Positions 15,768 to 60,571 of a DNA stretch of 64,000 nt are shown in pieces. Numbering within the stretch: the stretch's first letter is position 1; every line of letters starts with the position of its first letter. The notes beneath the pieces were generated by a model that was given only the letters and a program-made list of their open reading frames with translations, had not been told where the DNA came from and searched no databases. A program made the translations under genes and the position numbers. The DNA comes from a virus. The stretch covers positions 16,392-80,391 of IMG/VR virus record IMGVR_UViG_3300042881_004673; one strand, 5' to 3'.

Positions 15768-16449
15768 AAACGAAAAGGATATTATATTAAAAACGTTGGA
15801 CCTATTAAACTATCAAGTTGATATACATAACGTAAAAGTTGTTGTATGTGACGCATCAAATGATGGGATAACAAAATTAGATCTAATTACAAGGTTAGAG
15901 TATGTGAATAGAACCGACCTGTTTGTCTTACGAGTAATGGATGGTGGACTTCCAGCAATAGCAAGAAACAACGGATTCAAACTTGTTACAACACCATATG
16001 TGTTGTTTATGGATGCTGATGTATTCTTATTAGACCCAAAGGTATTAATAAGATCGGTAATAAAGATAAAAAAACACAATTTAGATCTAGTAACAACAAA
16101 GTTTCGTTCTGATAATGGGAATTATAATTACGTGTATAAGGTATTTGATTTAATACAGACACTCTCCAAGTGGTCAACACCATTCTGCCTTGGTGGATAT
16201 ATGTTAGTTCGTTCAGAAACGTTTAAGTCAATCGGAGGTTTTGATGAAGAGATTAAAGTTGCTGAAGATTATATGCTTTCAAAACAAATTAAACCAAAGA
16301 AATTCGGAAGAATAAACAATATTGTATATACACCACCAAGAAGATTTGAAAACAAAGGTGTGATGTATATGTTAAGACTTATGTTATCATCATTTTTCAA
16401 CAAAAATAACAAAGAATACTTTACAAACGACAAAGGTTATTGGAAATGA
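15727..16449 (+). CDS. Family 2 glycosyltransferase
   Basis: 240 residues. NLVTIVIPCKNEKDIILKTL is the N-terminal strand-helix of family 2 enzymes, and VLFMDADVFLLDP near residue 96 contains the DxD motif. EDYMLSKQIK near 182 resembles the acceptor-site acidic ED. A hydrophobic amphipathic C-terminus (VMYMLRLMLSSFF) suggests membrane association, as in enzymes that glycosylate lipids. The end overlaps the next gene by ATGA, so it is coupled to an LpxH-like phosphatase; together they may remodel a host glycolipid or build a virion glycan. Confidence 0.82.
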   Translation: MELSNLVTIVIPCKNEKDIILKTLDLLNYQVDIHNVKVVVCDASNDGITKLDLITRLEYVNRTDLFVLRVMDGGLPAIARNNGFKLVTTPYVLFMDADVFLLDPKVLIRSVIKIKKHNLDLVTTKFRSDNGNYNYVYKVFDLIQTLSKWSTPFCLGGYMLVRSETFKSIGGFDEEIKVAEDYMLSKQIKPKKFGRINNIVYTPPRRFENKGVMYMLRLMLSSFFNKNNKEYFTNDKGYWK

Positions 16450-59781: not shown

Positions 59782-59792
59782 TAAGAGAAACA

Positions 59793-59831
59793 ACGGGGGT
59801 AGGAAGTGAGAGGTTGGTGTCCTACTCCCGT
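59793..59831 (+). ncRNA. Long hairpin at the 5' end of the RNA cluster
   Basis: ACGGGGGTAGGA pairs with TCCTACTCCCGT (12 bp with one G-T pair) around a 15-base loop. Too large for a terminator with no T run, so a structured leader or small RNA. Confidence 0.7.
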
Positions 59832-59965
59832 GAAGAAATAAGAAGTTCATTGAAATTAAAATATTGTGGTGGTAAGAAACGGGAAACTCGTAAAGTGCAT
59901 TAACCTGTTGACATAAGATGGTGAAACGAGAGTGTGTGTCAGCTACTTAACTACAAAATTAAAAT

Positions 59966-60119
59966 AGTCAGGTGGTGGAATGTTAGACACATAGTGACAC
60001 GCACGGCAACCTTGAATAAGTGCACTTTGAAAAGGCAATGCGAATGATGAAGAACACTACCTCACTGTGCGTAGGTAAAATTCAAAGTGTTCATGCAGGT
60101 TAGAATCCTGTCCTGACTA
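59966..60119 (+). ncRNA. 154-base tRNA-like RNA
   Basis: AGTCAGG pairs perfectly with CCTGACT, followed by a discriminator A. The 3' end has a T-arm (GCAGG-TTAGAAT-CCTGT) and the 5' end a D-arm of the Leu/Ser type (GTG-GAATGTTAGA-CAC). The region that should hold the anticodon is about 110 bases long. Inside it ACGCAC (59999-60004) can pair with GTGCGT (60067-60072) and CACTTTGAA (60023-60031) with TTCAAAGTG (60081-60089); these cross and would form a pseudoknot. Candidates are a tRNA with an intron or a reduced tmRNA-like molecule. Confidence 0.6.
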
Positions 60120-60174
60120 CAACTAAGGAAGTATATGAGAGTCCTGAATTGTACACAAAATATCCCTATTGACA

Positions 60175-60190
60175 TCTCGGAAAGACGAGA
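60175..60190 (+). ncRNA. Small hairpin before tRNA-Ile
   Basis: TCTCG-GAAAGA-CGAGA ends 4 bases before the tRNA. The same GAAAGA loop occurs before tRNA-Asp at 60550, on a different stem, suggesting a processing signal. Confidence 0.6.
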
Positions 60191-60194
60191 ATAT

Positions 60195-60346: not shown

Positions 60347-60351
60347 CTAAA

Positions 60352-60412
60352 AGGGTAGAATATTCGTAAGGGCCTTTCCTGAAAGATGGCTAGCTAGGCC
60401 CGTGTCTACCCT
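60352..60412 (+). ncRNA. 61-base tRNA-like structured RNA lacking a T-arm
   Basis: AGGGTAG pairs perfectly with CTACCCT, and inside GGGCCT with AGGCCC. No TTCGA T-loop or clear anticodon arm is seen. It sits exactly where a tRNA would, between tRNA-Met and tRNA-Glu, followed by a short T run; a decayed tRNA or a small structured RNA. Confidence 0.55.
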
Positions 60413-60419
60413 TATTTTT

Positions 60420-60491: not shown

Positions 60492-60497
60492 CTATAG

Positions 60498-60541
60498 CTA
60501 ACCAAGCTTTACTACGATACGGGTTCATACCTGTGGGTTAG
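60498..60541 (+). ncRNA. 44-base acceptor/T-arm-like minihelix
   Basis: CTAACC pairs with GGTTAG, enclosing a T-arm-like hairpin (ACGGG-TTCATA-CCTGT) and 15 unpaired bases where D and anticodon arms should be. Looks like a tRNA reduced to its top half. Confidence 0.5.
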
Positions 60542-60549
60542 GGGTGACG

Positions 60550-60565
60550 ATCAGGAAAGACTGAT
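60550..60565 (+). ncRNA. Small hairpin before tRNA-Asp
   Basis: ATCAG-GAAAGA-CTGAT, 6 bases before the tRNA; shares the loop of the 60175 hairpin. Confidence 0.6.
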
Positions 60566-60571
60566 AAACTT

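Follow-up and report, generated by a model that had tools for sequence, protein, structure and literature searches.

In the TMERs of murine gammaherpesvirus 68, a eukaryotic virus, a viral transfer RNA (tRNA)-like unit carries and processes another RNA; this cargo consists of microRNA hairpins, which follow the tRNA-like unit on its 3′ side and are not inserted into it. The bacterial Y RNA known as YrlA joins a tRNA-like domain to another domain, and some phages encode Y RNA and Ro. Species 1 RNA of phage T4 (rnaC) is a stable late RNA of ~140 nt lying beside tRNAs, whose function is not known (PMC9697503), and GOLLD and ROOL are phage or prophage RNAs of unassigned function found near tRNA islands (PMC12286853). 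GOLLD and ROOL, together with OLE, form homo-oligomers, as supported in OLE and GOLLD by covarying palindromic loops (PMC12286853). Here we describe an RNA gene at positions 59966-60119 (+) of a 64,000-nt window (the whole stretch of DNA analysed, positions 16,392 to 80,391 of the 80-kb virus record IMGVR_UViG_3300042881_004673), which sits in a same-strand tRNA array with a protein gene and a tRNA-Ile as neighbours. The reading that we favour, with fair but far from full confidence, is that this RNA is a phage-made chimera, in which a tRNA-Leu-like frame surrounds a pseudoknotted module (the cargo), and that it would be processed as a tRNA, dimerise and act in trans.

The likeness to the described systems is partial in every case. 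Read by eye, the 3′ end of T4 species 1 (NC_000866, 70908-71046) shows a textbook T-arm and an acceptor-like strand (CCGGGTTCGAATCCCGG CGTTTCGTA), but its acceptor is only 5/7 paired, a Leu-type D-arm is not evident, and it has neither the frame nor the cargo sequence of the window RNA. Species 1 may be an isolated relative in kind, having just the T-arm and the position, as judged by eye, in common. GOLLD, ROOL and OLE are several hundred nucleotides long and have no tRNA-like frame, unlike the window RNA, and their Rfam models gave no match in this RNA or in one non-framed copy of its cargo. What the cargo shares with OLE and GOLLD is a covarying self-complementary loop, from whose sequence an oligomer is predicted here. 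As for the Ro/Y-RNA system, which was rejected, the YrlA model of Rfam matched neither the window, nor framed relatives, nor one non-framed copy, and TROVE/Ro occurs in a single one of 24 phage records (possibly fragments), 23 of which carry the frame-family pattern.

The outer parts of the window RNA are clearly tRNA-like. A 7-bp acceptor stem is formed by AGTCAGG (59966-59972) and CCTGACT, the latter followed by the discriminator A73 (60119) and an encoded C74 (all within 60112-60120); positions 8-9 (TG) and a Leu-type D-arm, GTG-GAATGTTAGA-CAC with its GTG/CAC stem, span 59973-59990; and the T-arm GCAGG-TTAGAAT-CCTGT, with a GCAGG/CCTGT stem, lies at 60095-60111. Acceptor, D- and T-arms are in this way present, whereas an anticodon arm with a 7-nt loop is absent; a conserved 98-nt pseudoknotted module (59995-60092) has replaced it together with the variable loop. 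The RNA was missed by ARAGORN run without introns and by Rfam at normal settings; when introns were permitted, ARAGORN drew the acceptor, D and T arms, and the Rfam tRNA model matches several framed relatives (for example at 47.3 bits) but not the window RNA. Copies 95-100% identical were found in seven other phage contigs, in which the similarity starts and stops only a few bases from the termini of the RNA and the flanks differ, and such bounded copies argue that the RNA is no product of chance. Thermodynamic folding of the window sequence alone was unremarkable (z = -0.5), so that the evidence for its structure is comparative.

Searches with the frame uncovered a family of its own, first found in this analysis and located in phage tRNA arrays. 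It has at least 234 distinct members, whose inserts fall into about 179 clusters; the ends are kept (TAGTCAGGTGGYGGAATTGGTAGACGC ... ACAGGTTCRAATCCTGTCCTGACTA) and the middles are unrelated. This number is a lower bound, and the proportions given below refer to it. The frame motif takes the form AGTCAGG...CCTGTCCTGACTA, with 1-9 copies of the pattern per phage record and 0 matches for a reversed-pattern control. The 5′ acceptor strand AGTCAGG is constant in 191 members, all having been chosen for at least 6/7 acceptor pairs, A73 in 219 and C74 in 229, and each of the 62 distinct frames has U-A as its pair 3-70. Most members measure 70-190 nt (a few longer entries cover two genes), and the smallest ones, of 70-76 nt, likewise lack a normal anticodon arm. 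Wherever a tRNA is present in the locus, the member lies on the same strand as that tRNA (144/144; median gap 215 nt). Pairs of the T-stem and acceptor vary with compensation, 20 cells being altered on both sides against 4.3 in shuffled alignments, a count whose acceptor share is biased by the preselection for paired acceptors. Among 85,000 bacterial and archaeal species the 5′ pattern of the frame was found in only 4 contigs, and in a sample of 395 genomes from the phylum reached via a Chitinophagaceae metagenome-assembled genome (MAG), the frame pattern occurs in one, a Chitinophagaceae MAG with a phage-like contig, and the cargo model in none. A host origin was rejected on these grounds and, as far as tested, the family is specific to phages.

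Cargos are not tied to a single frame. The window cargo occurs in the AGTCAGG frame and also in a TGTCAGA/TCTGACA frame (locus L276), and a second cargo is carried by AGTCAGG frames and by the AGTGCAG/CTGCACT frame of the complete podovirus MW202828.1. In the M054 cargo family (L066, L093, L136 and L151), a long cargo (GGCAGACACACCCACTCGTCTCGTGGGCGC...) is present in four frames, TGTCAGG, TGTAAGG, TGTATCG and TGTAGAG, with the acceptor changes fully compensated. The occurrence of the same cargos in different frames indicates that frame and cargo vary independently. The inserts as a group are structured RNAs and not random filler: in consensus folds of the 29 clusters with at least two members there are 26 compensated pairs, against 10 after column shuffling, and 12 broken cells, against 18.7, and the mean folding z-score of the inserts is -0.62 ± 0.10. 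With more than 100 different modules inside near-identical tRNA frames of related phages, these viruses appear to use the tRNA as a generic carrier for small RNAs. One further cargo family, CTATACTTAAGCAG-stem-GCTGGGTAA-stem (L065, L100 and L104), has a covarying helix with 4 compensated pairs in 3 sequences. In MW202828.1 itself, an environmental podovirus of 60.8 kb, positions 523-697 of locus L270 hold two adjoining unannotated tRNA-like RNAs, with no normal anticodon arm and with acceptors AGTGCAG and AGCAGAG (6/7 paired).

The insert of the window RNA is itself a conserved module of ~100 nt, of which 32 distinct copies in three settings were gathered from viral contigs through matches to ACCTCACTGTGCGTAGGT, which were then trimmed. 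Copies of the first setting are inside tRNA frames (the window, L048, L050, L224, L276, L283 and L286). Those of the second are located behind the 3′ ends of tRNAs or tRNA-like RNAs, or in array spacers (L054, L074, L124, L151, L287 and others), and TTGAC with a GGAAAGA hairpin comes next. Those of the third are free-standing (L108, L272, L274, L282 and others, plus a copy in a Porphyromonas gingivalis phage) and have their own closing helix of 9-17 bp, unrelated in sequence among copies and sometimes followed by a T-run. The P. gingivalis phage copy is located between capsid and adaptor genes and was detected by BLAST with E 1e-8 using a better query (E 0.01 with the first one). A covariance model of the module, R1, covers 59995-60095 of the window at 108 bits, the window being among the sequences used to build it. 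Among free-standing copies no consistent protein neighbour, such as capsid or portal genes, was found, and a neighbourhood like that of a packaging RNA was rejected given that their neighbours vary. Rfam searches at relaxed thresholds with the window and one non-framed copy returned only chance matches.

A pseudoknotted fold of the cargo is supported by covariation in A1, an alignment that holds 28 distinct copies. It comprises helices P2 (60006-60008/60039-60041) and P3 (60010-60013/60032-60035), helix P4 (60052-60057/60087-60092) around the hairpin P5 (60058-60062/60073-60077), and a pseudoknot between ACGCAC (59999-60004) and GTGCGT (60067-60072) within the P5 loop, where the P. gingivalis phage copy shows two compensatory pairs (ACGAGC/GCTCGT). 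In A1, 95.8% of the cells of this structure are paired and 14 of its 24 pairs change on both sides, including all three of P2 (GCA/UGC, ACA/UGU, AGG/CCU) and all six of P4. Its covariation score of 0.412 compares with 0.114 for shuffled and 0.026-0.081 for slid controls; the structure was drawn by us on A1 itself, which favours it over its slid versions, and more weight belongs to the two-sided changes. The initial annotation had described a tRNA-like outside (perfect 7-bp acceptor, T-arm and Leu/Ser-type D-arm), now confirmed, with a D-arm of Leu type, by the sequence and the ARAGORN drawing, and an oversized pseudoknotted middle, which the covariation upholds. It had also mentioned, without spelling them out, two crossing helices that we take to be ACGCAC/GTGCGT and CACTTTGAA/TTCAAAGTG; the former stands by its compensatory changes, but the latter was rejected, with 51.6% of cells paired against 49.0% in shuffled alignments and no covariation. 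An anticodon stem TAGTG/CACTA was equally discarded, as it is broken in L050 (TAATG) and overlaps P4.

The apical segment of the cargo, AAGTGCACTT (60018-60027), holds a self-complementary hexamer, a putative loop-loop dimer contact. The hexamer varies among copies (AGCGCU, AGUACU, ACUAGU, ACCGGU, ACGCGU, GUGCAC, UCUAGA, UUGCAA and two imperfect ones), and 28 of 30 positions in the 10 distinct versions are self-complementary, against a shuffled mean of 11.8 and with none of 20000 shuffles as high. A less position-bound test found a 6-nt palindrome in 20 of 24 distinct loops, where shuffles gave 5.9 on average and never more than 12. In other inserts palindromes are not enriched (85 versus 121 expected), making the signal specific to the window cargo. 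Adjoining apical bases co-vary, a pattern that pairing inside a single strand cannot give. For OLE and GOLLD, palindrome covariation has served in this way to support kissing loops between molecules (PMC12286853), and in our case it suggests a homodimer made by loop-loop pairing.

Sequence comparison establishes the frame family, the interchangeable cargos, the cargo fold and the palindromic loop. From there, we propose that the window RNA would be transcribed together with the tRNA array, and that RNase P of the host, with the pathway of tRNA 3′ maturation, would excise the frame and so release a stable RNA whose ends are defined. Two cargos would then pair in trans by their palindromic loops, and the resulting homodimer may have a structural or binding role, exerted in trans on a host or phage target. 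The cargo itself, judging by its free-standing copies, would need just a closing helix; the tRNA frame, equivalent in role to their terminal helix, would close, protect and mature it, supplying both helix and processing, and in other phages the same frame would do so for other cargos. Several observations weigh against this proposal. The tRNA elbow is weakened in the window lineage, where G19 is lost and C56 is changed to A, and although a U19-A56 pair is possible in the window it is not in L048 or L049, so that the frame may be a poor substrate for RNase P or the CCA-adding enzyme. Palindromes of the GUGCAC class could instead form a small hairpin whose loop is UGCA, the pseudoknot has two covarying pairs in one distant sequence as its support, and neither a protein partner nor a target was found for the window RNA.

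Two other readings place the function elsewhere. The frame could be the active part, a tRNA mimic either charged with an amino acid or offered as a decoy to a tRNA-binding host enzyme or an anti-phage tRNase, with the cargos just barring entry to the ribosome. The acceptor, A73 and Leu-type D-arm constant across the 234 members, and the fact that leucyl-tRNA synthetase does not require the anticodon, would fit such a role, which we nevertheless regard as unlikely: the window cargo is conserved far beyond the needs of a filler and survives without the frame, the acceptor sequence changes while the cargo stays, and the window lineage has a degenerate elbow. Alternatively, the cargo could work in cis or by catalysis, as a processing signal or an undescribed ribozyme maturing adjacent tRNAs, and its placement in frames would be a by-product of recombination within tRNA arrays. 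Many copies do lie right behind a tRNA or tRNA-like 3′ end and ahead of a shared hairpin module, and certain nucleotides of the loops and joining regions are invariant, but framed copies are enclosed in a tRNA-like structure, free-standing ones have their own helix and varied neighbours, and no cleavage motif was recognised in the cargo, all of which leaves this role rather improbable.

The initial annotation had offered two options that fare much worse. A functional gene from which an unusual intron is removed to yield a normal tRNA-Leu would agree with the Leu-type D-arm, the acceptor, the T-arm and the drawing by ARAGORN with introns permitted. However, only AUAG (4 nt) and AU (2 nt) separate the cargo from the D- and T-arms, so excision would rebuild no anticodon arm, which excludes the intron; the Rfam search gave no group I match either, a normal anticodon arm is missing from short members of the family too, and the cargo exists free-standing outside any tRNA, leaving this option highly improbable. 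We give practically no credence to a miniature transfer-messenger RNA (tmRNA) with a tag reading frame, since the window RNA, like tmRNA in its tRNA-like ends, pseudoknot and missing anticodon arm, has no G3-U70, the alanine identity pair, and matches no tmRNA model in Rfam or in the tmRNA mode of ARAGORN (0/234 members), its cargo is found without a tRNA half, and the ANDEEHY peptide of one frame, already cautioned to be perhaps a chance occurrence, is not conserved, indels of 1-2 nt breaking the frame in relatives.

The tRNA array of the window contains other conserved elements. Upstream, a strong hairpin CGGGGGTAGGA...TCCTACTCCCG (59790-59845) is kept in 10 loci of related phages, and an inter-tRNA RNA-like element (59862-59960) is conserved in 39 loci (91-100% identity among the distinct copies listed); it lacks a T-arm and is closed by a 7-bp terminal helix of its own, TTGTGGT/ACTACAA. 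Right behind the tRNA-like 3′ end, the element at 60120-60194 (13 loci) ends in TTGAC and a CGGAAAGACG hairpin, a 3′ module also present after many non-framed copies of the window cargo. Two conserved inter-tRNA spacer elements follow at 60348-60418 and 60493-60571 (29 and 19 loci, respectively), one of them closed by AAGGGTAGA/TCTACCCTT and the other with a AGGAAAGACT hairpin.

The host of the phage probably belongs to the Bacteroidota, considering the module copy in a Porphyromonas phage and the one family-bearing contig of a Chitinophagaceae MAG. No Rfam family or database annotation found here, and no paper in a literature search confined to open-access PMC, describes either the frame family or the cargo. 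Of the 234 members, 52 are called as tRNAs by ARAGORN, their anticodons scattered or undefined, and tRNA finders thus overlook or misname this large, apparently undescribed set of phage RNAs. In a broader view, to which we assign about an even chance, the tRNA chassis would be a general phage cassette for more than 100 small structured RNAs swapped via its constant ends, a natural counterpart of the laboratory ‘tRNA scaffold’, and the window cargo a small, self-dimerising pseudoknotted RNA of a new class. If the frame is indeed a carrier, it would offer phages a simple route by which host tRNA enzymes serve the maturation and stability of many different RNAs, and its cargos would make up a ready library for probing what phage RNAs, including T4 species 1 and those of the GOLLD/ROOL class, do during infection.
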